Source: a virus. Taken from it: 31,363 bases of DNA. The DNA lies in IMG/VR virus record IMGVR_UViG_3300040801_003632, positions 1 through 31,363 of that record; one strand, 5' to 3'. The translations under genes and the position numbers were made by a program. Numbering within the stretch: position 1 is the stretch's first letter; the number at the start of each line of letters is the position of its first letter. The notes under the pieces were generated by a model. That model was not told the DNA's origin, searched no databases, and saw only the letters and a list, made by a program, of their open reading frames with translations. Below are positions 15,341 through 31,363 of this stretch, one piece after another.

Positions 15341-15518
15341 GGACTCGAGGCTGTAGTCTTAACTGCGGCTGTATACGAGGATCCTGCAGCTCTCCGTCCC
15401 GAACAAAGAACTCAACCTTGCCGTGTTCACCGACCATATCGAGTGCCGCGACAACTATCCGGATTCGCTCTTCATTTTGGTCTACCCACTCATGCAACTG
15501 TTCAATCGTTCGTTCCAT
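15330..15518 (-). CDS. Small acidic protein, function unknown
   Basis: A 62-residue protein. ATG 15518 has GGAGG 4 nt upstream; an in-frame TTG 5 codons earlier lacks a site. The sequence opens MERTIEQLHEWVDQNEERIR, probably a helix followed by a short strand pair (GKVEFFVRDGEL). It overlaps the recombinase stop by 17 nt and is the last gene of the early transcript. No homologous family is recognised. Confidence 0.5.
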   Translation of the reverse strand: MERTIEQLHEWVDQNEERIRIVVAALDMVGEHGKVEFFVRDGELQDPRIQPQLRLQPRVLDT

Positions 15519-16428
15519 TTCCCCTCCGTGCAAAAGAAACTATCTGATCAGGTTTTATCGATGTGTGTACGTACATGTCAGCTGTGATCGTTGTTGTGCT
15601 GTGCCCGAGATACGAACTGACCGCTTTCAGATCATATCCAGCTTGAATCATTCTCGTTGCGAATGAGTGCCTGAGCATGTGCGGATGGACCGAACGTCCC
15701 AGCGTTCGCTCACCTTCCTTCTTCAGCATCTGCCAGATCTGTTGGCGGGTGTATCGGCGTCCGTTCTTTGTCTGGAACACGTACCCGTGTTTATGCGGGT
15801 ATTGCTCCCTGATCTGATTCCACAACTCAATCGAAACATAGAAAGTGCGCTGCTTCCGTCCTTTTCCGCTTATTGTCACGTCTATTCTGTCTGTCTTCAA
15901 ATTGCAGTCTGACAACTCCCAGTTGATCAGTTCGCTTACTCGGATTCCGGTTTCACCCAGCACCGCGATGATACACGACGCCCACGGTCGAGCCCGGTAC
16001 GCCAGACGTCTTATCTCGTCGTCGCTGAGAATCTTATCGTCCAGGACATTGTTGTTCTGCTTGTTCTTGCTCTTCAGAGTTCCGAGAACACGCTCGATCT
16101 TCCAGACATCGAGTATCGAAAAGCTGTCGGGATCTTCAGCAACAATCTCACGAACAATGCGTTTCGCTTGTGACCTGGCAACGTTCACCGTGCTGCTTCG
16201 TCGATCAGACAGGTGCTCAACAAACTCGATTAAAGACTCAAGAGTCAAACCTCGGTGATTGGCTTCAAGCCAGCTGATCAGGTGCTGGTTCTTTTCGACG
16301 TATGAACCGAATCGCCTGCCATCGAGTAAGAACGCTTTTTGTTCGTCGGTTACCTCGTTTATACGGTCTTTATGCAAAAGGTGTATATGTTTTTTTACGG
16401 AACTCAAATTGTGTGTGTCGCTGCTCAT
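15502..16428 (-). CDS. XerC/XerD-type tyrosine recombinase (second recombinase)
   Basis: A 308-residue site-specific recombinase with a full active site. Arg box I is GIRVSELINWELSDCNL, Lys in the GKGRKQRTF hairpin, box II HMLRHSFATRM (His-x-x-Arg), LGHS, and the nucleophile Tyr in DMYVHTS, near the C-terminus. The N-terminal ~110 residues form the helical core-binding domain. It starts on a TAATG overlap with the preceding gene. It is not next to attP: the other integrase is, so this enzyme probably resolves multimers at a dif-like site, or inverts a DNA segment. No inverted-repeat-bounded invertible segment was recognised around it. Confidence 0.9.
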   Translation of the reverse strand: MSSDTHNLSSVKKHIHLLHKDRINEVTDEQKAFLLDGRRFGSYVEKNQHLISWLEANHRGLTLESLIEFVEHLSDRRSSTVNVARSQAKRIVREIVAEDPDSFSILDVWKIERVLGTLKSKNKQNNNVLDDKILSDDEIRRLAYRARPWASCIIAVLGETGIRVSELINWELSDCNLKTDRIDVTISGKGRKQRTFYVSIELWNQIREQYPHKHGYVFQTKNGRRYTRQQIWQMLKKEGERTLGRSVHPHMLRHSFATRMIQAGYDLKAVSSYLGHSTTTITADMYVHTSIKPDQIVSFARRGNGTND

Positions 16429-17263: not shown

Positions 17264-17640
17264 TTTTGAATCCTCTCCTTCCGCTCCTGCATCTTCTTTC
17301 GTAGCTGCTCGAAGATCGGAGCCGGGTCGAAACCCGCGTCGTCGCTGATCTGAGCTCGCTCTGGCGTCTCTAACGACCTGGCAGAGAACTCAGGGTATGC
17401 TTCATACATCTCCGTTTTTGCTTTTTCGACTGCGGATACATCAGGTACCCTTATAGCTTTCATCCACGCTTTCCCATCGCGCGTAATGATGTCGTACAGC
17501 ACCTTTAGTCGATCCTTGCTTTTCGGGAGTATCTCCATGACCTGTTTACGCATCTGATCGGGATACTCGTCCCGGTAATACTCTTCCATGCTTTTGAGCC
17601 ATCTCTCTCGATAATCAGGCCTTTTTTCATCATCTTTCAT
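17260..17640 (-). CDS. Conserved early protein downstream of the replication initiator
   Basis: A 126-residue, charged, mostly helical protein on TGATG overlap with the initiator. Sequence from MKDDEKRPDYRERWLKSMEE through LEKPER-like (LETPERAQISDD) to FEQLRKKMQERKERIQK suggests a helical bundle and a C-terminal coiled coil. In lambdoid phages the gene following the origin-binding protein is a helicase loader; this protein lacks the AAA+ motifs of DnaC-like loaders, so it could be a small loader of the P type or a regulator. Function is inferred from position only. Confidence 0.5.
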   Translation of the reverse strand: MKDDEKRPDYRERWLKSMEEYYRDEYPDQMRKQVMEILPKSKDRLKVLYDIITRDGKAWMKAIRVPDVSAVEKAKTEMYEAYPEFSARSLETPERAQISDDAGFDPAPIFEQLRKKMQERKERIQK

Positions 17641-18665
17641 CAGAACCCAACCTCCCGATAAACCTCGTCGTCGACCATGCTTTCAACCTTCTGCCTGATC
17701 TTTTCAATAACCACGTCCCACCGAGCCGTAAGTGCGCTCGGTACCCAGGGGCACAACCGCCAGTAGTCCCCGCGGCCAATCCTTCTCAGCTCTGCGAACT
17801 CGGCCATGATCGCACCAGCGAGTTCACCTTCGGACTCGTACGGCGTCGATTCGACAAGCCTCCTTGTTCGCTTGGCAATGTCGACCAGGTGTTTCCGCTC
17901 TTTCGGAATGCTTTTCCACGATTCAAGAGGTGTCTGGCTTGTGAATGCGGACTCGTAGTCTGCAGCGAGTGAATCCTTGAGAGTACCTGGTGACCTTGAA
18001 CCGGGTTCACCGCGCGGCTTTTGCTGCGCAAGAGAGTTTCTTTTATTCTCTTTAAGCATTTCCTTATTCGCTTTAAGCATTTGTTTCTCGAAACCACACG
18101 TGTGGTCAGCCACACCACTGGTGGATAACACCACTGGCTGTTGATCCACTGGTGTACTTTTCACACCACTGGTTTCGGTATCTGTAGCGTTGTCCTGGGC
18201 GTGGCTTTCCGTCTGCTCAGGATCATAGGTTTCGGCCTGCTGAGGTACCGTCGATGACTCTTCAAAGAGTGAACCCTGTGACGGATCCTCGACGAACTCA
18301 TCGTCTTCTTTTTTGGTGCGTGCTTTGGCGGCTGACTGAAGGTACGTGATCTGGATGAATATAGACCCGAGTTTCCCGTGTTCATCGCGCCTACGGACAT
18401 ACCTGATCAGGTCGCGTTTGCGCAACCATGATTTCGCGGCTTTGAGCTTATCAACGCCCCATCCGAGACCGTTCCGGAGGTATTGATCGTTTGCCCGAAC
18501 AGTGTTTGTCGCCTGAAGTCGTGCGGTGAACATGAGGTGCTCGTACAGGAGCTTCGCGTCCTGGCCGACTTTACCGCCTTGCATGAACAGTTTGTACAGA
18601 CCGACGGTAAAAAATATCAGATCACCGTCAGCATCCATCCGAACGTTTTGGAAGTCTCTGTTCAT
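17640..18665 (-). CDS. Replication initiator (O-like), with the origin inside the gene
   Basis: A 341-residue protein. Residues 1-~115 look like a winged-helix DNA-binding domain (LYKLFMQGGKVGQDAKLLYE, then LKAAKSWLRKRDLIRYVRRR and a strand pair, KLGSIFIQITY). Residues ~115-230 are a Gln/Ser/Thr-rich linker whose DNA carries the iterons. Residues 230-341 are a helical C-terminal domain (KHLVDIAKRTRRLVES; AELRRIGRGDYWRLCPWVP), fit for partner contact. This domain order and a linker-encoded origin match lambda O. Start ATG 18665 on ATGA overlap with the upstream gene. Confidence 0.72.
   Translation of the reverse strand: MNRDFQNVRMDADGDLIFFTVGLYKLFMQGGKVGQDAKLLYEHLMFTARLQATNTVRANDQYLRNGLGWGVDKLKAAKSWLRKRDLIRYVRRRDEHGKLGSIFIQITYLQSAAKARTKKEDDEFVEDPSQGSLFEESSTVPQQAETYDPEQTESHAQDNATDTETSGVKSTPVDQQPVVLSTSGVADHTCGFEKQMLKANKEMLKENKRNSLAQQKPRGEPGSRSPGTLKDSLAADYESAFTSQTPLESWKSIPKERKHLVDIAKRTRRLVESTPYESEGELAGAIMAEFAELRRIGRGDYWRLCPWVPSALTARWDVVIEKIRQKVESMVDDEVYREVGF
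18037..18172. other. Putative iteron origin of replication with AT-rich unwinding element
   Basis: Four copies of CACCACTGG or a close variant begin at 18113, 18129, 18144 (ATCCACTGG) and 18164, spaced 16, 15 and 20 bp. A 14-bp palindrome with core CACGTG lies directly beside them (18093-18106). Adjacent DNA at 18037-18084 is AT-rich and contains CTTTAAGCATTT twice, as expected of a DUE. The whole lies within the linker codons of the initiator, as in lambda ori. Seen directly; function is inferred from layout. Confidence 0.68.
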
Positions 18666-18859
18666 ACAGAACCCCGATCGCGCTGGTCGAGAACAAGGAA
18701 ATAGGCCTCTCGATCAGCTATGGATCCGGGTTTTCCTTCCGACTCAATTTGCCCTGCTTTTTCTAACCACATATCAAACTCTCTTTCGTTGAACTCGTGT
18801 ATCCACGGAGGAAAACCTCGAACGAGTCGAGGCTTACTTCCTGTACTGCGTTGGCTCAT
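18662..18859 (-). CDS. Small early protein, function unknown
   Basis: A 65-residue protein with ATG 18859, overlapping the upstream gene by 26 nt and the initiator by ATGA. It contains PRLVRGFPPWIHEFNEREFD and a short amphipathic helix but no known motif. Its tight coupling to the initiator gene suggests a replication-associated role; no more can be said from sequence. Confidence 0.5.
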   Translation of the reverse strand: MSQRSTGSKPRLVRGFPPWIHEFNEREFDMWLEKAGQIESEGKPGSIADREAYFLVLDQRDRGSV

Positions 18860-19721: not shown

Positions 19722-20035
19722 CGTTCATCTCCTGATCCGTGGATCACGCTTCGGCTCTTTCTATCTCGTAGCTTTGCAATGTTAATTTCCGCTATCTGGT
19801 CGAGATTGACGCCTATGACCGTGCACGTTTCCGACAGGTACCACAGGCAGTCGCCGAGCTCTTTCTCGAGCTTTTGCTTTGCTTGAGCGAATGTGTAATC
19901 ACCCCGTTCGATCTTTTGAAAGATTCCGGCAACCTCGCCGGCTTCGGCGAGCAAACCGAATGCAGCGTGGTACAACTGGTGCCCGGCCGCTGAACTCGTT
20001 TTATTCGCTTCATCCTGATATTCCGACATCTTCAT
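19718..20035 (-). CDS. MazG-like nucleotide pyrophosphohydrolase
   Basis: A 105-residue protein. ATG 20035 is chosen because it overlaps the upstream stop as ATGA; the longer frame from 20068 lacks a site. The MazG-type metal-binding pattern is visible: LLAEAGEVAGIFQKIERG, then KLEKELGDCLWYLSETC with its E-x2-E...E-x2-D acids, and VNLDQIAEINIAKLRDR. It would hydrolyse nucleoside triphosphates (dNTP house-cleaning) and in phages may lower host alarmone or nucleotide pools. Compact phage form of the all-alpha NTP-PPase family. Confidence 0.85.
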   Translation of the reverse strand: MKMSEYQDEANKTSSAAGHQLYHAAFGLLAEAGEVAGIFQKIERGDYTFAQAKQKLEKELGDCLWYLSETCTVIGVNLDQIAEINIAKLRDRKSRSVIHGSGDER

Positions 20036-20403: not shown

Positions 20404-20567
20404 CGAACTGATCTCCGTCGCTTCCGATCGCGCTCGATAATATCAAGACGCCCAAGCGTATTGGTTTCGCGATAAATCAATGACTGGTTCTTGATTCGGT
20501 ACTGCAGGATTGCAATCGAGCAGCCAATGATTATTCCGAGTATCAAAAAAACACTGTAGGGGATCAC
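20400..20567 (-). CDS. Small single-span membrane protein
   Basis: A 55-residue protein. GTG 20567 overlaps the ParB-like stop as GTGA; the longer frame from 20618 would run into that gene. The N-terminal VIPYSVFLILGIIIGCSIAI is a single membrane helix, followed by a basic cytosolic tail (DIIERDRKRRRSVR). No signal-peptide cleavage is obvious. Function unknown; small membrane proteins in early operons often modulate host processes, but this is speculation. Confidence 0.5.
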   Translation of the reverse strand: MIPYSVFLILGIIIGCSIAILQYRIKNQSLIYRETNTLGRLDIIERDRKRRRSVR

Positions 20568-21457
20568 GCCGCACCGCCTTCTATGCGTTTCTTCTCCTCG
20601 TCCATCCAGTACGCACAAACAGTCAGTACATACGCCTTATCGCTATCGCTCGAAACAGAACTCAGCAACTCATTGACGTAACCCTTGACGCTTTTCACCG
20701 CCTCGTATGCATCAAGACTTTCCACAAGCCCAGGCTGTGCCGTCGGTTGTCTGTCTGTTTCGTCTTCGTGGTCTTCGATCTGATCGACAGGATTCGGTTC
20801 AGGCTCGTAGTAGTCTTCATCGCTGGGATCGTACTCCGGTTCGTAGAACGGTCGGTCGTCAACCTTCGCTGGTTCCGATTCTTTTTCGTGCTCGGTGTGG
20901 CTTTCCGGATCTGATGAAGTTGTGCCTATATTCCCTGTCTGCATGGTTGCAACCGTTCCGTGCTTTGTGACGTACTGCCGTTCGGTATCAGAGTCCTGAC
21001 CTGGCATGGCCGCACGCATCCGACTCACCATCGAGTTGTTGACACCGCATTTCCGTGCGATCTCTCGGTCGGACCACTTGGACCACTCCGGATCCATCAG
21101 AAGCGTCTCTACCGCGCGACGCTTATCGGCGTTCGTTCGTCGGAGTCCATGATTAGCATTCGCGCCGACCGAAAAAAGGACCGCGTCTCGCCGGTGACCC
21201 TGTCGAACGATTGCAGATATTTGCTCGAATTCTCTATGGGTATTGGCTCGTAGGAACCTGTGAGCTGCGTACCGATGAAAACCGTCAGCCAGCCAGTAAT
21301 CAGATCCGTCGTAGTAGACCACAACTGGTGGAAAATCCGCGCCTTCAAGCATCGCTTCCGCGTACTCAGCGACAACATCCCGGTTCAGAGCTTCACGAGT
21401 CTGTGTGCCGCCATCAACCTTGATCAGACCGATCGATAACTTAGTTTCATTTTCCAT
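20564..21457 (-). CDS. ParB/Srx-domain protein with helix-turn-helix
   Basis: A 297-residue protein. ATG 21457 with GGAG 6 nt upstream, overlapping the antirepressor by 11 nt. Residues 1-~110 form a ParB N-terminal/sulfiredoxin-like domain (IKVDGGTQTREALN, FPPVVVYYDGSDYWLADGFH with the GFHR motif, and HRRDAVLFSVGANANHGLRR). Residues ~115-150 are a helix-turn-helix (SDREIARKCGVNNSMVSRMR). A long acidic low-complexity stretch (~190-245) and a short helical C-terminus follow. No ParA partner is present, so it is more probably a replication or transcription regulator than a plasmid-type partition factor. Confidence 0.82.
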   Translation of the reverse strand: MENETKLSIGLIKVDGGTQTREALNRDVVAEYAEAMLEGADFPPVVVYYDGSDYWLADGFHRYAAHRFLRANTHREFEQISAIVRQGHRRDAVLFSVGANANHGLRRTNADKRRAVETLLMDPEWSKWSDREIARKCGVNNSMVSRMRAAMPGQDSDTERQYVTKHGTVATMQTGNIGTTSSDPESHTEHEKESEPAKVDDRPFYEPEYDPSDEDYYEPEPNPVDQIEDHEDETDRQPTAQPGLVESLDAYEAVKSVKGYVNELLSSVSSDSDKAYVLTVCAYWMDEEKKRIEGGAA

Positions 21458-22229
21458 GGGTGACTCCTACTGACGCTACGGGTTGAATAATCTCGTGTTT
21501 CTCGAGTTGCTTACGGATCCAGTTCACTCCCTTCTGGTACACAAGCGTTTTGAAACGAATGTGGGTCTCGCCATCAGGGGTTGTGTATTTCTGCTCGACC
21601 AGACGGAAGTAACCTCGGTCGACATAGGTTTGGTATGGGGTGTTATCCTGCATGAGCACGCCCTGGTTGCGGAGGAACTCAAAAAGTCGATTACGGCCGA
21701 TGGATCCAAGCGCCTTGGCGACGTGCTTCATTTCGATCGCGTCTTTGCTCGAGGCAACCGCGTCGAAGAATTCAACCTTTGGTTTCGCTTCGGCGATCAA
21801 TGCTTGCTGGGCGTCAATCTCGCGTTGCTGGTCTGCTGCGAGCTGTAAGGCGTCCGCAAGGGTCTGCGGGACGATCGGAGTGTACTGGCCATATCGCCGG
21901 ATCGCGGGAAGCACCTCGCCGACCACCCACTCTTCGAACCGCTCTGCGGCCGGCAGCTTTGACCGCATGATCAGACGGTATACGTCGCGTTCGGGTATAA
22001 TCAGCAACCTACGAGCGCCACCATGCCCGATACTTGAAAGTACCGTTTCGGTACCCCCTTCACCAGCGTTTATCTCGCGGACAGATTTGCAGTGCCGCTG
22101 AACATCTCGGCTGATGTTCGCATACCCGAGCACACGGGCCACGTCGGACGCGACAAACCACGGTTCCCCGTGCATTTCGATAACTCGCACTTCACTGTTC
22201 CCGTAGGCAAACGGAATAATGAGATTCAT
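21447..22229 (-). CDS. ant: Antirepressor (Bro-N + KilAC)
   Basis: A 260-residue protein. ATG 22229 is supported both by GGAGGT 4 nt upstream and by an ATGA overlap with the previous gene. Residues 1-~110 form a Bro-N domain (RVIEMHGEPWFVASDVARVL GY continuing, then LLIIPERDVYRLIMRSKL and FEEWVVGEVLPAIRRYGQY). Residues ~150-250 are a KilAC/ANT domain (KVEFFDAVASSKDAIEMKHV, LFEFLRNQGVLM, GYFRLVEQKY). Such proteins bind and inactivate repressors. It is the third gene after the RHH repressor, as ant follows arc in P22. Confidence 0.92.
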   Translation of the reverse strand: MNLIIPFAYGNSEVRVIEMHGEPWFVASDVARVLGYANISRDVQRHCKSVREINAGEGGTETVLSSIGHGGARRLLIIPERDVYRLIMRSKLPAAERFEEWVVGEVLPAIRRYGQYTPIVPQTLADALQLAADQQREIDAQQALIAEAKPKVEFFDAVASSKDAIEMKHVAKALGSIGRNRLFEFLRNQGVLMQDNTPYQTYVDRGYFRLVEQKYTTPDGETHIRFKTLVYQKGVNWIRKQLEKHEIIQPVASVGVTHGK

Positions 22230-22450
22230 ATAGACCTCCAATAGACCCGAAGCACGCTTTCCAGATCGCGCTCCACCTGAGATATGTTTTTCAGAAGCTC
22301 TTTATTCGCTTGATGATTCCCCCCGGTAACCTGGTTGATTACCTGCTCAGCGGCGTACGCGCGAAGCTCGGGATTGGCAGTTGGCCATGCTGAGTCGACA
22401 GCAGCGGATAACGACCTGTTTGCCCAGAGGTTTACGATTGAACTATTCAT
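22226..22450 (-). CDS. Small protein between the RHH repressor and the antirepressor
   Basis: A 74-residue protein starting at ATG 22450, overlapping the RHH stop (ATGAATAG). The sequence NLWANRSLSAAVDSAW and ELRAYAAEQVINQVTGGNHQ is predicted helical. It ends on ATGA coupling with the antirepressor. Not recognised; it may modulate either neighbour. Confidence 0.6.
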   Translation of the reverse strand: MNSSIVNLWANRSLSAAVDSAWPTANPELRAYAAEQVINQVTGGNHQANKELLKNISQVERDLESVLRVYWRSI

Positions 22451-22637
22451 CGGACATTTGACCAAGCTCTGACTCAAGCATCACCAAGACCTGAGCCGTG
22501 ATGGTTCGGCGTTCTTCTCTTGCCCTGCGAACGATTTCTTGATAGATGGCTTCCGGAAAACGAATGGACGTTGTTCGAGTCTCACCACTCGAAGTTCCTG
22601 AAAGCTCAACAATTTGAGTTTCATGCGTTGTTTTCAT
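22443..22637 (-). CDS. Arc-like ribbon-helix-helix repressor (early operon)
   Basis: A 64-residue DNA-binding protein. The RHH core is TRTTSIRFPEAIYQEIVRRA, then the turn EERRTITAQVLVMLESELG, matching Arc/MetJ-type beta-helix-helix (strand SIRFP). It is the first gene of the leftward early operon that carries the antirepressor. There is almost no leader: the -10-like TACCGT ends about 8 bases before the ATG, and no Shine-Dalgarno is visible, so it may be translated leaderless. Operators of the AACCTAC type overlap its promoter, so it may autoregulate, as Arc does. Confidence 0.88.
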   Translation of the reverse strand: MKTTHETQIVELSGTSSGETRTTSIRFPEAIYQEIVRRAREERRTITAQVLVMLESELGQMSDE

Positions 22638-22742
22638 GTAACCTACGGTAACCTACTTAGAATTAAGTGTCAAGAACTATAGCAACCTACCGAGAATTGT
22701 TTTAGTTGTAATTTATGTTATAATTAGTGGAAGGAGATATTT
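22638..22742. promoter_or_regulatory. Divergent operator-promoter region of two RHH repressors
   Basis: 105 bp between divergent repressor genes. Leftward promoter: TTGACA (22673-22668), 17-bp spacer, TACCGT (22650-22645). Rightward promoter: TTGTTT (22697-22702), 16-bp spacer, TATAAT (22719-22724), then AAGGAG before the ATG at 22743. Three AACCTAC copies lie at 22640, 22650 and 22684 (first bases). Two of them extend to AACCTAC-N3-GAATT and repeat 34 bp apart; the first two are 10 bp apart, one helical turn. The first two overlap the leftward -10 and spacer; the third abuts the rightward -35. Confidence 0.78.
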
Positions 22743-22964
22743 ATGCCGTACCAAGGTGATGGAAAACAGATTTCTATTCGGTTCCCGAAAGGCACTTATG
22801 AGACAGTCAGTAGAATGGCGAAAGAAGATCATCGATCAATCAGTGCTGAGGTAGTCTACCTGGTGGAGCAATCTATAAAGAGAAGTTCGGAATCACATCT
22901 ACACGCTGCAGATTCTTCACCTGACTACTCGTTGGATGACAAAGATCGAAAGGACATTGTTTAA
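22743..22964 (+). CDS. Mnt-like ribbon-helix-helix repressor (divergent)
   Basis: A 73-residue protein with SD AAGGAG 6-7 nt before ATG 22743. RHH core: KQISIRFPKGTYETVSRMAK then EDHRSISAEVVYLVEQSI, the same fold as its divergent partner but only partly similar in sequence. The C-terminal ~25 residues are acidic (SSPDYSLDDKDRKDIV). It is the rightward counterpart of the leftward RHH gene, in the place of P22 mnt. Likely the prophage-maintenance repressor. Its 3' end is duplicated at 23643-23725. Confidence 0.88.
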   Translation: MPYQGDGKQISIRFPKGTYETVSRMAKEDHRSISAEVVYLVEQSIKRSSESHLHAADSSPDYSLDDKDRKDIV

Positions 22965-23040
22965 ACATTCTTCCCCATTCTTTTTCGGTCGACAAAACAA
23001 AGACCTCGATATTACAATGCAAAATATTACCGTTTAGAAA
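22882..23040 (+). repeat. 158-bp direct duplication, first copy
   Basis: Covers the last codons of the Mnt-like gene and the noncoding segment up to the cargo gene at 23058. The second copy (23643-23798) is near-identical with scattered substitutions. Each copy lies just before a plus-strand gene and shares TCGACA-N15-TATTAC, a possible promoter with a short spacer. Confidence 0.85.
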
Positions 23041-23057: not shown

Positions 23058-23576
23058 ATGAGAAATCGTCTACTGTTGTGCTTGGCTATTGTGATGTTCG
23101 CTGGGGTTGCTAATGTCCACTCAGATAGTATTTTTCAAACGGATTATGAAGACGCCGTTCGACGACAGCGCCGCGGTACGATAATGACATGGACGTCAAT
23201 AGTGACCCTTTCTGCTGGTGTATTTTTCGCAACTCGAAAATCGGACATAGGAGTGCTTTCGATACCCTCATTCGCTATCGGTTTATACACGGGTGTTCGA
23301 GGCTCCATGGTTTGGGCAGAATCTGGATTAGAATCAAGTCGTCTCGGCTATGCGATCGAAAACGAGCAGCGAATGACAGGGAGAGAAATTGAAGCAGTTC
23401 GAGACGAGCGCATTTTCATCGGAATGTCAGAAACAGGATTGCGATCTAGCTGGGGATCTCCGATGAGGATCAACACATTTCTTAATTCGACTTCCAGGCG
23501 AGAACAATTTGTATATGGGACCGGTGGGCCATACGTTTATTTGGAGAACGGCCGAATTCAATCGATTCAAAACTGA
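23058..23576 (+). CDS. Secreted/membrane cargo protein with SmpA/OmlA-like C-terminus
   Basis: A 172-residue protein with ATG 23058. The N-terminal MRNRLLLCLAIVMFAGVANV is a signal peptide, with a likely cleavage near AGVANVHS. A second hydrophobic stretch (TWTSIVTLSAGVFFATRKSD; IPSFAIGLYTGVRGSM) suggests a membrane anchor. Residues ~115-172 show the pattern IFIGMSETGLRSSWGSPMRI, with a final YGTGGPYVYLENGRIQSIQN, common in BamE/SmpA-fold proteins. It is probably a lysogenic-conversion gene acting in the host envelope. Confidence 0.65.
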   Translation: MRNRLLLCLAIVMFAGVANVHSDSIFQTDYEDAVRRQRRGTIMTWTSIVTLSAGVFFATRKSDIGVLSIPSFAIGLYTGVRGSMVWAESGLESSRLGYAIENEQRMTGREIEAVRDERIFIGMSETGLRSSWGSPMRINTFLNSTSRREQFVYGTGGPYVYLENGRIQSIQN

Positions 23577-23590
23577 AGGTGCCGTTTATG

Positions 23591-23621
23591 CTCTTATCCG
23601 GCTATCACCACCGGATAAGAG
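23591..23621 (+). other. Perfect 11-bp hairpin between cargo genes
   Basis: CTCTTATCCGG (23591-23601) and CCGGATAAGAG (23611-23621) pair perfectly around a 9-nt loop. No T-run follows on either strand, so it is a weak terminator candidate. It lies between the first cargo gene and the second copy of the duplication, and may mark the boundary of the duplicated cassette. Confidence 0.55.
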
Positions 23622-23642
23622 ACATAAGACACTGCTTATAGG

Positions 23643-23725
23643 GAAGTTCGGAATCACATCTAAAAGCTGCAGATTCTTCACCTGACTCCTTGTTGGATGA
23701 CAAAGATCGAAAGAACATTGTTTAA
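23643..23725 (+). pseudogene. Remnant of the Mnt-like gene (C-terminal 27 codons)
   Basis: Codons matching SSESHL-AADSSPD-LDDKDRK-IV, with a terminal TAA at 23723-23725, repeat the end of the Mnt-like gene with several substitutions but without frameshifts or stops. No start is nearby, so it is a truncated copy made by the duplication. The open frame hints that it arose recently. Confidence 0.75.
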
Positions 23726-23798
23726 GCATGATCCCACGTTTTTTCGGTCGACAGAAACGTCACTTCGATATTACAATGCAAAATTATACTGTTTAGAA
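23643..23798 (+). repeat. 158-bp direct duplication, second copy
   Basis: Near-identical to 22882-23040. It includes the gene remnant and the same noncoding segment ending TATTACAATGCAAAA, then a cargo gene. Offset between copies is about 761 bp. Confidence 0.85.
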
Positions 23799-23802
23799 AA
23801 AA

Positions 23803-24837: not shown

Positions 24838-25155
24838 CTAAGATATTTCTTTCTGCAGTTTTTCCATGAGCTTCACAGACGCTCTACCTGGGCTGTGCTT
24901 TTGGTCGGCGAACCGATGTAAAACGGCACGGCTTTCGTCTATTTGGCCTCGCTTTTTGTATTCAATCGATAGCTGATCATAGTACCAAGGCGCTACACCA
25001 AAACCTGTATCTACGGATTCTGCTTCTGTAGCGTCGATCAGACGCAGCAGAAGACGCACTGCTTCATCGCTTTTACCTTCCCGACGTAAACGTCTCACTT
25101 CATCTGAATACTCAGTGAAGTGCTTGCCATCTATATAACCAGGTTTCTCGCTCAT
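24838..25155 (-). CDS. Small TPR-like helical protein next to the integrase
   Basis: A 105-residue protein with AAAGGAG 5 nt before ATG 25155. Two antiparallel helical hairpins (EVRRLRREGKSDEAVRLLLR; APWYYDQLSIEYKKRGQIDE) fit a TPR-like fold. Proteins of this shape (GVAPWYYDQL...) are common beside temperate-phage integrases. The operator-like motif AACCTACCATGAATT lies about 60-80 bp upstream of its start, so it may belong to the repressor regulon. Confidence 0.68.
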   Translation of the reverse strand: MSEKPGYIDGKHFTEYSDEVRRLRREGKSDEAVRLLLRLIDATEAESVDTGFGVAPWYYDQLSIEYKKRGQIDESRAVLHRFADQKHSPGRASVKLMEKLQKEIS

Positions 25156-25217: not shown

Positions 25218-25237
25218 AACCTACCATGAATTAGGTT
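25218..25237. promoter_or_regulatory. Distant operator-like dyad (AACCTA-N8-TAGGTT)
   Basis: AACCTAC-CAT-GAATT occurs at 25218-25232, the third instance of the 15-bp motif found twice between the divergent RHH genes. Here the site extends to a perfect inverted repeat AACCTA-N8-TAGGTT (25218-25237). It lies upstream of the TPR-like gene and 2.5 kb from the other copies. Confidence 0.62.
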
Positions 25238-25268: not shown

Positions 25269-26480
25269 CTATGTCACATAGCCTTCGATCATCGGCAGAA
25301 GGTCTCGTAGTCTCTCGGCCTTCCGGCGTTTATACCGGCTCTGTGCAGGCGTGAGCACCCGAGACGATCCGTAAGTGTGCGAATGCCCGACCAGTTCTCT
25401 CACCAGCAGCTCGTCTGCACCGTCGTCGAGCAACAGTGAGATCACCGTATACTTGAGGCTATACGGAGTGATCCTGTTTCCTTCGACGTCGTGCTCCGGG
25501 ATCTTCGCGGCCGTTGCTGCACGCTGCCAGCGCTTCCGCCGAAACCAGCCTTGATACAACAAACGTTCGCCACCGGTGTTGCAGAACACATAGTCCACCG
25601 GGTTTATCCTGACAGACAGATCCTGAACGCGCCTGAATGCGTCGATCGCGGATGTTGTCAGCGGAACAAACCGTCCTCGGGCTGCTCTGGTTTTCGTGTC
25701 GCGGTACCGAACCGATCCGTCGTCGAGGTCGACGTCTTCCCACCGTAGCGACTCAATCGCCTTCGGCCGTTCACCCGTCGTAAACATGAGAAGCGCGAAA
25801 AGGTGCGCTTTCGCTGTGCGCTCTTCACGGTCTGCCTTTTTGAGTCTAGCGTCCTCATTGTAGTCCCAGTTCGCCGAATCCATTAAGGTTTTGACTTGGT
25901 CTTTCGTGAGAGCTCCCCGGGACGTGGTTTCCTCTCGAACACGCGAAACGGTCGACAACGGATCAAACTGGAATGCCCCGTCCTGGGCGTGCAAGCTCTC
26001 GCGTATCGCGGTCCGGAGGTCGCTGATCACCAGGTTAACCGTTCTCGCGCCAGTCCCATTCTCTCGGAGCCTTCGTTTCCAGTCTTCAATGTCTCTGGGC
26101 TTAATCTCCGTGGTGACCATTCGCCCAAGCTCATCATTTATCACCAGGCGCTTCAGTCGACTCTTTCGGTCAGCGAGCCGTCGCAGATCAGGATCACGTC
26201 CATCGGTGCGCTGTCTGGATACCCACGGACACGTATCAGGGTCGAAAAACGGTTCGAGGTACTCAGACATTGTTTTCAGGTACCGGTGTTCCGGCACCTG
26301 AGCGGTATATTGAGCGGCTGCAAAGCGTTCCGCTTCCGCTCGGTTTCTCGGCTTACCGGCCTTCGAAAACTCGATACGGATCCCAGTAGATCGGTAGTTT
26401 TTCCAGCCTGACAGGCGATAATACCAGAACGGAGACGATCCACGGATTACGACTGTCCATGATTCTGATGGTCTTCCCAT
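25269..26480 (-). CDS. int: Tyrosine integrase (attP-associated)
   Basis: A 403-residue site-specific recombinase from ATG 26480; a longer frame from TTG 26516 is less likely because it overlaps the predicted -35. The N-terminal ~100 residues include an arm-binding region and a stretch RAEAERFAAAQYTAQV; a core-binding domain follows (ARTVNLVISDLRTAIRE). Catalytic domain: box I FTTGERPKAIESLRW with Arg, DTKTRAARGRF with Lys. Box II normally reads H-x-L-R-H-T but here is TPYSLKYTVISLL, so His, Arg and His are replaced by Tyr, Lys and Tyr. LVGHS follows, then the putative nucleophile Tyr in QSRYKRR, further away than usual. It lies beside attP, so it is the phage integrase. Confidence 0.85.
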   Translation of the reverse strand: MGRPSESWTVVIRGSSPFWYYRLSGWKNYRSTGIRIEFSKAGKPRNRAEAERFAAAQYTAQVPEHRYLKTMSEYLEPFFDPDTCPWVSRQRTDGRDPDLRRLADRKSRLKRLVINDELGRMVTTEIKPRDIEDWKRRLRENGTGARTVNLVISDLRTAIRESLHAQDGAFQFDPLSTVSRVREETTSRGALTKDQVKTLMDSANWDYNEDARLKKADREERTAKAHLFALLMFTTGERPKAIESLRWEDVDLDDGSVRYRDTKTRAARGRFVPLTTSAIDAFRRVQDLSVRINPVDYVFCNTGGERLLYQGWFRRKRWQRAATAAKIPEHDVEGNRITPYSLKYTVISLLLDDGADELLVRELVGHSHTYGSSRVLTPAQSRYKRRKAERLRDLLPMIEGYVT

Positions 26481-26487
26481 GTGAAAA

Positions 26488-26516
26488 AGTATCGTTTTTG
26501 AGTCGAAAAGTTGCAA
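26488..26516 (-). promoter_or_regulatory. Putative integrase promoter with almost no leader
   Basis: TTGCAA (26516-26511), 17-bp spacer, GATACT (26493-26488) on the minus strand. Transcription would begin within a few bases of the integrase ATG (26480), so the mRNA may be leaderless. No Shine-Dalgarno is visible. Confidence 0.45.
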
Positions 26517-26597: not shown

Positions 26598-26640
26598 TGG
26601 GCGCTACTGGATTTGAACCAGTGACATCCTGCTTGTAAGT
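26598..26640 (-). other. attP core: 3' half of a tRNA-Val(UAC) gene
   Basis: The minus strand reads from the anticodon loop CTTACAA (anticodon TAC, Val) through 3' stem GCAGG, variable ATGTC, T arm ACTGG-TTCAAAT-CCAGT, and acceptor AGCGCCC plus A73. The 5' half is absent: the sequence before the loop cannot pair with GCAGG. Such a fragment beside an integrase is the standard phage attP, which restores the host tRNA on integration. No CCA is encoded after A73. Confidence 0.88.
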
Positions 26641-28498: not shown

Positions 28499-28842
28499 TC
28501 ACCAAACTGATTTATTCGCTGTGACTGCGGCGGTACTCGCCACCAGTGCGCGGTAGGACCGCTGTCCACGGGGACCCTGCTCCCGTCTGCCATTATGTCC
28601 ACGGCTGTGATGGTCGTAGCGTCGCTGTGAGCGTTCGCGGCAATAAAAGCCGGTCGCTCATATACAATCGTCTGCGGTCCGTCTCCCTGGTGCAGCGTGC
28701 TCTGCGCTGTATCGCCTGTCGTGTGCTCGAATACACGGACTGCCCACGGTCCGTCTGCGTCGATCTGTAGTTCAACGGTTCCGGTACGCGGGGTCGCGCA
28801 CCCTGCGAGTATCAAAACTGCCAGTATCAGTAGTGCTTTCAT
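28492..28842 (-). CDS. Lipoprotein in the lysis region (o-spanin candidate)
   Basis: A 116-residue protein, ATGA-coupled. Signal KALLILAVLILAGCATP with lipobox LAGC (Cys at about residue 15). The mature part has strand-rich sequence (TVELQIDADGPWAVRVFE; TIVYERPAFIAANA), unlike short Pro-rich Rz1 proteins, so it may instead be a lysogen-surface or lysis-timing protein. It is the only lipobox protein in the late operon. Confidence 0.62.
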   Translation of the reverse strand: MKALLILAVLILAGCATPRTGTVELQIDADGPWAVRVFEHTTGDTAQSTLHQGDGPQTIVYERPAFIAANAHSDATTITAVDIMADGSRVPVDSGPTAHWWRVPPQSQRINQFGEW

Positions 28843-29393
28843 TCTGCCCCTCCCTTGGTCATATCATGCCGCCACCGGGCGGCTTCGTGGGCTGATTTGT
28901 TGTGTGCCTTCCACGGCCATGTGATCCTGTCTTGCCAGTCGACCGGTGGCAGTCTGTAAGGCCACGGTGGCAGGTAGGGTACAATGTCGCCTCGGTGTGC
29001 CCGGTTCGCCTCGGTCTCAATATCTGACACTCGGGTGAGCGTGCGCTTGCTCGCAAACAGGTGTAGCTGTGTGCGTACTCGGAAACCTGTATCGAGCATG
29101 AGCGCGAGTATCTGCGCTACTGCCCCGCCACGGCTGAATCCGCATGTGACGATCTCTTTTGCTTGGTGGATTATTCCCTGTGACGCAAGCTCCACGACTA
29201 TATAGCTCGCCTCTGCGTAGTCGCGGGTGTTGACCCTGCGCCCGGCATAGCGGACGGTGCGGGTGTCCACGTTGTGCGCCCACTGTGACCAGCCGTGTGT
29301 ACCGGCGCACCAGATGTAGAGTGTCTCGTCGCGGAATAAGTAGCGGTGCTGTGTTGTGGGAATGCGGGTCCAGATCATGCGCTTCATACTCAT
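28839..29393 (-). CDS. Lipase class 3-like alpha/beta hydrolase
   Basis: A 184-residue protein with ATG 29393, ATGA-coupled to the fibre gene. Nucleophile elbow CGFSRGGAVAQILAL (G-x-S-x-G, Ser87) after a helix (YIVVELASQGIIHQAKEIVT), then Asp136 in HRGDIVPYLPPWPY, the D-x-V-P-x-L-P-P phrase of class 3 lipases. A terminal His (RWRHD or HNKSAH) could complete the triad. It is small for the family. It may act on membrane lipid at lysis or adsorption. Confidence 0.72.
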   Translation of the reverse strand: MSMKRMIWTRIPTTQHRYLFRDETLYIWCAGTHGWSQWAHNVDTRTVRYAGRRVNTRDYAEASYIVVELASQGIIHQAKEIVTCGFSRGGAVAQILALMLDTGFRVRTQLHLFASKRTLTRVSDIETEANRAHRGDIVPYLPPWPYRLPPVDWQDRITWPWKAHNKSAHEAARWRHDMTKGGAE

Positions 29394-31363
29394 CCAGCTT
29401 GCAACGTCAGATTACCAACTAGCGTTACATCTGCCATTGTCAATGGATTAGAGAAAACTTCATTTTGTGGTATGCCTGGAGTATCCCAAAGGTAGCCTGT
29501 GAAGCGTAGTGTTGATCGCCAGTACGGTTTACCATCGTACCTAAGTGCTGCATAGTCTTGCCCCCCGTATGTAACTCGAGATAAGTACCAATAAGATGAA
29601 CCGTCCGTACCACCGGAGTGATAGGAAACCGCATTCATGTAGGCTATATAACGCGCGTTCATGCCGTGTGCTTGTGACGATACGCCGAAATCTATCTTGT
29701 GAATGTCGTCGTGACCGGACGATCGTTGCCCGAGAAGTTGCCCCTGTACATTTAGAGATGAAGAGCCCCATTCGCCGAGAAGCCACAAGCAAGAGGTTCC
29801 ATTTGCGTCTGCTTCTGGTACGTCACGGTTGAGGACGTAGCCCGATGTAAACCGTAGCTCCCCTGCTATCTCTAATGTGTCTATACCTACCGGAAAAGAA
29901 ACTCCCCCCTCAAACCGATGCACCCCTCCACCGGTCGTAACGTAGTTGATGTCCCGACCATCTCTCGCTTGTATCCGCATATCTCGGGTGTCTGCGTCGT
30001 CTGTCCACGGTTGGCCGGACTGGCGGTATGCGGTGATCTCGCTTTCAACTACGTTGTCACCTTCGAGTAGCAACAGGTCGTCTATTTTGCTCGTGCCGGA
30101 CAGGGTGATCTGTAGCGGGGCGGCGCTCATGTCTAGGCCGGTCGTGTCAATCGATGCTGCTACTGTGCCGTCAACTGTGAGTGAGACCGTGCTGCCGTTG
30201 CGCTTGAGATGGTAGTGGTGCCATGCGTTCGCGGGAGGTGGGGTAAAGGTGTCGGATGTGCCGACAGTACGGGCGATTTGCGCTACATTGTCTCCGCAAA
30301 GTCCCATTCCATTTTCGCGTAAAACGACAGATTGAAGACTTGCATTGCTATGCGGATAAGCACTCGAGATGTCTGTCCACGTGACGCCTGAATCAGTTGT
30401 GCGGGCGATTTCGCCTGATTGACCAACTGCCAAGCCTACTCCGTCATCGCAGAGAGTGACGGACAGGATTATCCAATGGTGCGGGTAGGCACTCGAGATG
30501 TCCGTCCACGTGACGCCCGAATCGGTTGTGCGGGCGATGTCCCCTGAGTCGCCGACAGCCAGACCCACTCCGTCGTCACGCAGGGCTACGGACCGGACGT
30601 TGCTGCTATGCGGATAAGCACTCGAGATGTCTGTCCACGTGACGCCTGAATCGGTTGTACGGGCGATTTGTCCGAGAACACCGACAGCCAGACCTACTCC
30701 GTCATCACGCAGTGCGACGGATAAGATACTTCCGCTATGCGGATAAGCACTCGAGATGTCTGTCCACGTGACGCCTGAATCAGTTGTGCGGGCGATTTCG
30801 CCTGATAGACCAACTGCCAAGCCTACTCCGTCATCGCGTAAAACGAGAGATTCAAAACTGAGATTTGTAAACTCATAAGATTCAAATATTTTTGTCCACG
30901 TGACGCCTGAATCGGTTGTACGGGCTATCGTTCCTAAGGCACCGGCAGCGAGCCCTACTCCGTCGTCACGCAGGACAATGCCAAAAATTGTTCTTGCATG
31001 CGGGTAGGCACTCGAGATGTCTGTCCACGTGACGCCTGAATCAGTTGTGCGGGCGATTTTTCCTGAGTCGCCGCCTACGAGTCCCACTCCATCATCGCGT
31101 AAGGCAATGCACCGAATCGAGTTGTGCGGGTAATTGCTAACATTAGACCATACTGAGCCGTGGTTTTCTGCATTGAAAAGAAACGCGAAACCACTTCCTA
31201 TGTTCACGCCCGTAAAACGGGTTCGCAGCTGTAACTTATTCTCCCGCCTCAACCACGCAGCCACCGACCAATCAGAGTCCGGTAAGTTGAAACTACTCGT
31301 GAGTACGCCACCTTGCCTCGCTTGGCCGTAAAAACCATCCTCAAGTGTTGTGTATCCACCGCC
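29390..31363 (-). CDS. Hub-fibre protein, C-terminal part with a seven-bladed propeller nested in a LamG-like domain
   Basis: The 3' part of the gene that begins at 2415 (1,423 residues in all; residues 806-1423 fall at 31246-29390, and the repeated 31247-31363 stretch is the overlap). LamG first half: DSDWSVAAWLRRENK...TGVNIGSGFAF. Then seven ~43-residue units (about 834-1130), each with LRDDGVGL and a G-x-I-A-R-T-T-D-S-G-V-T-W block (Asp-box) in six of seven. LamG second half: WHHYHLKRNGSTVSLTVDGT and KIDDLLLLEG. A C-terminal beta-rich region (ALRYDGKPYWRSTLRFTGYL) follows. Reading from a GTG at 31264 would miss the first half. Confidence 0.88.
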   Translation of the reverse strand, partial: GGGYTTLEDGFYGQARQGGVLTSSFNLPDSDWSVAAWLRRENKLQLRTRFTGVNIGSGFAFLFNAENHGSVWSNVSNYPHNSIRCIALRDDGVGLVGGDSGKIARTTDSGVTWTDISSAYPHARTIFGIVLRDDGVGLAAGALGTIARTTDSGVTWTKIFESYEFTNLSFESLVLRDDGVGLAVGLSGEIARTTDSGVTWTDISSAYPHSGSILSVALRDDGVGLAVGVLGQIARTTDSGVTWTDISSAYPHSSNVRSVALRDDGVGLAVGDSGDIARTTDSGVTWTDISSAYPHHWIILSVTLCDDGVGLAVGQSGEIARTTDSGVTWTDISSAYPHSNASLQSVVLRENGMGLCGDNVAQIARTVGTSDTFTPPPANAWHHYHLKRNGSTVSLTVDGTVAASIDTTGLDMSAAPLQITLSGTSKIDDLLLLEGDNVVESEITAYRQSGQPWTDDADTRDMRIQARDGRDINYVTTGGGVHRFEGGVSFPVGIDTLEIAGELRFTSGYVLNRDVPEADANGTSCLWLLGEWGSSSLNVQGQLLGQRSSGHDDIHKIDFGVSSQAHGMNARYIAYMNAVSYHSGGTDGSSYWYLSRVTYGGQDYAALRYDGKPYWRSTLRFTGYLWDTPGIPQNEVFSNPLTMADVTLVGNLTLQAG
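30265..31155 (-). repeat. Tandem ~129-bp repeats coding for the beta-propeller
   Basis: Near-identical blocks such as CTCGAGATGTCTGTCCACGT recur at about 30362, 30491, 30620, 30749 and 31010 (one divergent copy between the last two), a period of 129 bp or 43 codons. Blades 2-7 share most of their DNA, so they expanded recently. Confidence 0.9.
31247..31363. repeat. Terminal direct repeat, right copy
   Basis: Identical to bases 1-117. See the left copy; the unit length is 31,246 bp. Confidence 0.93.

Follow-up and report, generated by a model that had tools for sequence, protein, structure and literature searches.

How lysogeny might be controlled in a temperate phage with no recognised CI-type repressor is the question raised by one short intergenic region of IMG/VR record IMGVR_UViG_3300040801_003632, whose positions 1 to 31,363 (31,363 nucleotides) form the window of this analysis. 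Two genes for predicted RHH repressors diverge from this region, and an antirepressor gene lies third in line on the leftward side, a layout that a preliminary description had likened to immI of phage P22. We give a probability of roughly 0.6 to the reading that lysogeny in this complete temperate phage is governed mainly by this immI-like module, whose antirepressor belongs to a family other than that of P22.

The record represents a completely assembled circle of 31,246 bp, with an exact 117-bp terminal repeat revealed by end-to-end comparison (1-117 = 31247-31363) and a tail ORF that spans the join of its ends (29390-31363 + 1-2415). Since the genome is complete, the absence of a CI gene is informative. 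On the circle, 37 of the 41 genes point leftward and four point rightward, namely RHH2 and three moron-like genes in a block of 45% G+C; the only divergent gap among the 41 genes is 22638-22742. Two features bear on the lifestyle of the phage:

25269-26516, minus strand: tyrosine integrase (Pfam 9e-16; PHROG integrase 1.3e-38)
26599-26640, minus strand: probable attP core, read from the sequence as the 3' part of a tRNA-Val(TAC) gene

The integrase adjoins the tRNA-Val 3' part and phage genes flank both sides, as attP would predict; ARAGORN found no complete tRNA at this tRNA-Val(TAC) core. The phage is small and appears to be complete and temperate. It might instead have lost its true repressor and with it functional temperateness, leaving RHH genes that merely dampen early expression, a scenario that agrees with the missing CI gene and with the retention of integrase-like recombinases by some phages judged lytic (PMC13313380). 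However, the integrase is intact next to its tRNA-derived attP, the rightward moron block behind RHH2 has promoter-like sites of its own, and the paired operator-like repeats described below are likewise intact, all of which makes such a loss improbable.

Several further features of the genome can be recorded here. A second tyrosine recombinase, XerC-like and with apparently intact R-K-HxxR-H-Y residues as judged by eye, is encoded at 15502-16428 in the leftward operon, close to the packaging genes. The join-spanning tail protein contains repeated ARTTDSGVTWTDISSAYPH units matching Ycf48-like models, and one Pfam-scanned ORF, likely 28839-29393 (GFSRGG motif), gave a weak match to Lipase_3 (lipase class 3; 2.2e-4). 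About 165 bp occur twice, at 22876-23040 and at 23637-23799, as a duplication in two pieces of 87% and 81%. The duplicated unit comprises the RHH2 3' end and a promoter-like TCGACA-18-TACAAT, with one copy ahead of each of the genes at 23058 and 23803, and from its sequence looks like a moron-insertion scar. Behind gene 23058 lies a perfect 11-bp stem-loop (23591-23621; z -5.9) that lacks a T run and is a possible terminator.

The preliminary description had placed two divergent RHH genes at the centre of the locus, and their positions agree with that description:

22443-22637, minus strand: RHH1, predicted Arc-like repressor, first gene of the leftward early operon (AlphaFold RHH fold, PHROG, likeness to RHH2)
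22743-22964, plus strand: RHH2, in the Mnt position, predicted prophage repressor (Pfam Arc; Arc and AmrZ in the PDB)

Both point away from a shared 105-bp gap, 22638-22742. RHH2 matches Pfam Arc (PF03869; E 4.5e-7), an Arc-like PHROG family (1.8e-7) and PDB structures of Arc and AmrZ. RHH1 has no Pfam match and reaches only 0.005 against the Arc-like PHROG family; at the protein level it matches RHH2 with 35% identity (E 5.8e-8). Its AlphaFold model (mean pLDDT 85) contains a strand (residues 19-28) followed by two helices (29-41 and 46-63), and RHH proteins account for nearly all of its top structural matches, including PutA, AtaR, CopG, Arc and AmrZ (Z 5.6-6.2, rmsd 1.2-1.8, 43-46 residues); the small size of the domain keeps the Z values modest. 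The model thus predicts that RHH1 is an RHH protein with a strand-helix-helix fold. In Arc, residues Q9, N11 and R13 touch DNA. The corresponding strands, as aligned with Arc, are TTSIRFP (RHH1) and QISIRFP (RHH2), and since they are near-identical, one operator common to both proteins appears plausible. Neither protein has relatives in the viral_contigs collection; searches of annotated phages gave weak relatives for RHH2, none for RHH1 and no DNA match to the switch region.

The RHH proteins could also serve in partition or as part of a toxin-antitoxin system, given that antitoxins are numerous among RHH proteins, that a ParB-like gene lies in the operon and that the matched PHROG families are labelled 'partition protein ATPase'. 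The same label, however, is attached to a protein in the Mnt position of SEN22, a P22-like Salmonella phage, and therefore says little. Moreover, PADLOC linked none of the genes next to the RHH pair to defence or toxins, and the phage has an integrase, so that we consider a role of this kind very improbable.

In an immI-type module, operators would lie between the two RHH genes, and candidate sites are found there and at one other position:

22640-22664, plus strand: O1, operator-like, AACCTAC twice with a distance of 10 bp, together with GAATT (motif search, PWM)
22684-22698, plus strand: O2, operator-like, AACCTACCGAGAATT (motif search, PWM)
25218-25237, plus strand: O3, operator-like, AACCTACCATGAATTAGGTT, a perfect AACCTA-N8-TAGGTT palindrome before ORF 24838 (motif and palindrome search)
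22676-22684, minus strand: P_L, predicted early promoter with extended -10 TGCTATAGT (consensus match only)
22697-22724, plus strand: P_R, predicted RHH2 promoter, TTGTTT-16-TATAAT with extended -10 (consensus match only)
24838-25155, minus strand: ORF 24838, 105-aa TPR-like protein, predicted third target via O3 (weak TPR matches; O3 upstream)

The 12-base motif AACCTACnnnGAATT occurs exactly three times, at 22650, 22684 and 25218, against an average of 0.0025 in shuffled sequences. Two of the copies lie within the gap, where they overlap the two predicted promoters; the third precedes ORF 24838. Because the motif was defined from the copies at 22650 and 22684, the independent evidence is the third copy. 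A PWM scan scored the three sites, which were also its training set, at 30.8, 30.3 and 29.6 bits, with the next site at 10.9. The exact O3 palindrome was absent from 400 shuffles. A near-palindrome inside the antirepressor gene (21611-21630, one mismatch) fell outside the top PWM sites and was dropped. O1, with an additional AACCTAC 10 bp before its core, covers the predicted P_L start region and reaches the RHH1 start codon, and O2 lies within the predicted P_L spacer and touches the predicted P_R -35. A stock sigma-70 scan listed neither promoter, so both rest on the extended -10 rule. The repeats in the gap are above chance and operator-like, and we regard them as putative RHH operators.

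The gap heads the early operon, whose leading genes are tightly coupled:

22226-22450, minus strand: ORF74, 74-aa small protein between RHH1 and the antirepressor gene (sequence; low-confidence three-helix model)
21447-22229, minus strand: antirepressor with Bro-N and KilAC (ANT) domains, third gene of the leftward operon (Pfam Bro-N 1.6e-23, KilAC/ANT 2.5e-32; PHROG Ant 1.3e-73)
20564-21457, minus strand: ParB-like protein, the next operon gene (PHROG ParB-like 1.5e-21)
17640-18665, minus strand: replication initiator-like protein of the early operon (PHROG O-like 3.1e-5, DnaD-like 1.3e-4)

RHH1 and ORF74 overlap by 8 bp (ATGAATAG), and ORF74 and the antirepressor gene by 4 bp (ATGA), with a GGAGG site preceding the latter. 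ORF74 belongs to no family found with Pfam, PHROG or PADLOC. The antirepressor, which the preliminary description had correctly placed third in the operon, is not of the P22_AR family, as Pfam searched up to E 1 reports Bro-N and ANT only. Downstream of it, overlapping or separated by short gaps, come the ParB-like gene, an HTH_17 gene (20032), MazG, a second HTH gene (18834), the replication initiator-like gene and others, so that the DNA-binding genes at 18834, 20032 and 20564 indeed lie inside the early operon. A Pseudodesulfovibrio MAG contig carries a small ORF judged by eye to be RHH-like, an 85-aa ORF and an antirepressor in the same order; the two antirepressors are 50% identical. Searches with TerL and the ParB-like protein returned distant relatives only, and those with the replication protein and one moron protein found no viral relatives.

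In agreement with the preliminary description, no CI/Cro-type HTH repressor was found in the complete genome. The best HTH_3 score, within the ParB-like gene, was 11.6 bits (cut-off 23), S24 and HTH_19 had no match in the genome, and a Pfam search of 88 ORFs at 14-29.4 kb listed no CI/Cro-type family among 25 of 40 families. The phage has no recognised CI/Cro or S24 repressor, although a repressor of some unrecognised family is possible and the HTH_17 gene at 20032, the HTH gene at 18834 and the ParB-like gene at 20564 could contribute to control.

An unrecognised repressor of this kind would be needed if the RHH pair were an accessory, immI-type switch that mainly governs the antirepressor while another phage protein keeps lysogeny. 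Such an arrangement is found in P22 (PMC11016777), Paracoccus phage Pyei1 and Synechococcus phage MinM1, which has an RHH/P22_AR module plus an S24-like gene. It also counts against the main-switch reading that KilAC antirepressors are described as countering major phage repressors (PMC11172241), and no CI-type one is present here; in phiCDKH01, KilAC antirepressor genes adjoin an XRE repressor (PMC11172241). We compared 50 records that share a related antirepressor or ParB-like gene; Arc-family genes occur in 10 of them and HTH_3 matches above the cut-off in 33. Divergent RHH pairs occur in four, three of which (G009, G019 and G020) have HTH_3 genes alongside. The fourth, G035, has no HTH_3, HTH_19 or S24 match. 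Overall, a CI, S24-like or HTH_3 gene is present in most of the comparison phages with RHH pairs. Against an accessory role stand the failure to find a CI, Cro or S24 gene, the absence of a second divergent promoter region and the position of the module at the head of the replication operon rather than among virion genes, and we consider this role unlikely. We count in favour of the main-switch reading that G035/L180 is laid out in the same way and has a paired repeat of 17 bp; repeats also adjoin RHH genes at L182 and L183. As a second CI-less case, G035 was set aside: both ends of its record coincide exactly with gene ends, so that it is probably a trimmed provirus and only a lead, and its module adjoins a large virion-type gene.

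If the RHH module is the main switch, it may operate as follows. In a lysogen, P_R would make RHH2, which would bind O2 and O1, cover the P_L spacer and start region and thereby silence the leftward early operon with RHH1, ORF74, the antirepressor, the ParB-like gene and the replication genes. Upon infection or induction, P_L would be active and RHH1 its first product; acting at the same operators as RHH2, it would limit both promoters, like P22 Arc and lambda Cro. The antirepressor would come next and lift repression, either of its own phage or of a resident prophage, and O3 would place ORF 24838 under the same regulators. The strongest form of this model, in which two competing RHH repressors at common operators run the whole lysogeny decision of a tailed phage and the antirepressor acts on an RHH repressor rather than on CI, is tentative, and we lean somewhat against it. 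If the main-switch reading is true, an immI-type module has been raised from an accessory to the main switch, providing lysogeny control without a CI protein and an explanation for some temperate phages that have no recognisable repressor. It also poses a testable question, namely what the target of a KilAC antirepressor is in a phage without a repressor of the CI type.

Most phages rely on a CI/Cro pair for this decision, and the Arc-type pairs known from elsewhere act mainly as accessory switches. The comparison with P22 immI (mnt / arc-ant) holds in part. Both systems have two divergent genes for RHH repressors and an antirepressor gene on the arc side; between the two RHH genes lie operators in P22 and operator-like repeats in our phage. 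However, the P22 antirepressor Ant is a P22_AR protein that targets c2, the repressor encoded in a separate immC, whereas the antirepressor here is a Bro-N/KilAC protein, and ORF74 is inserted between the arc-like gene and ant. Moreover, immI of P22 controls ant only and has a separate CI-type immC beside it, whereas our module is continued on the same strand by the early operon, and we see no switch of the immC type. P22 immI is dispensable for lysogeny, yet its deletion reduces lysogeny frequency (PMC11016777). Paracoccus phage Pyei1 (MK291445) similarly has an Arc-family gene followed by a KilAC antirepressor, plus a divergent Arc-like gene, but its module lies among tail genes and it has an annotated CI-like repressor, p19. 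Repressor C, the usual repressor of Pf prophages, is missing in 12 of 182 cases, where an Arc-family gene stands in its place; these are filamentous phages, for which a distinct regulatory mechanism is merely suggested by the authors (PMC7549136). The switch of lambda, cI/cro, is similar in outline, with two repressors and operators between divergent promoters, as proposed here, but the proteins of our phage have an RHH fold instead of an HTH, lack a cleavable S24 domain and are unrelated in sequence to those of lambda. RHH regulators of lysogeny are already known from archaea: in SSV1, the carrier (lysogenic) state is maintained by F55, a small RHH protein that acts as the main regulator of the virus and has repeated operators at the early promoters and its own promoter (PMC9608457), although SSV1 is a fusellovirus in which a single RHH protein fills this role, with no antirepressor or divergent RHH partner described.
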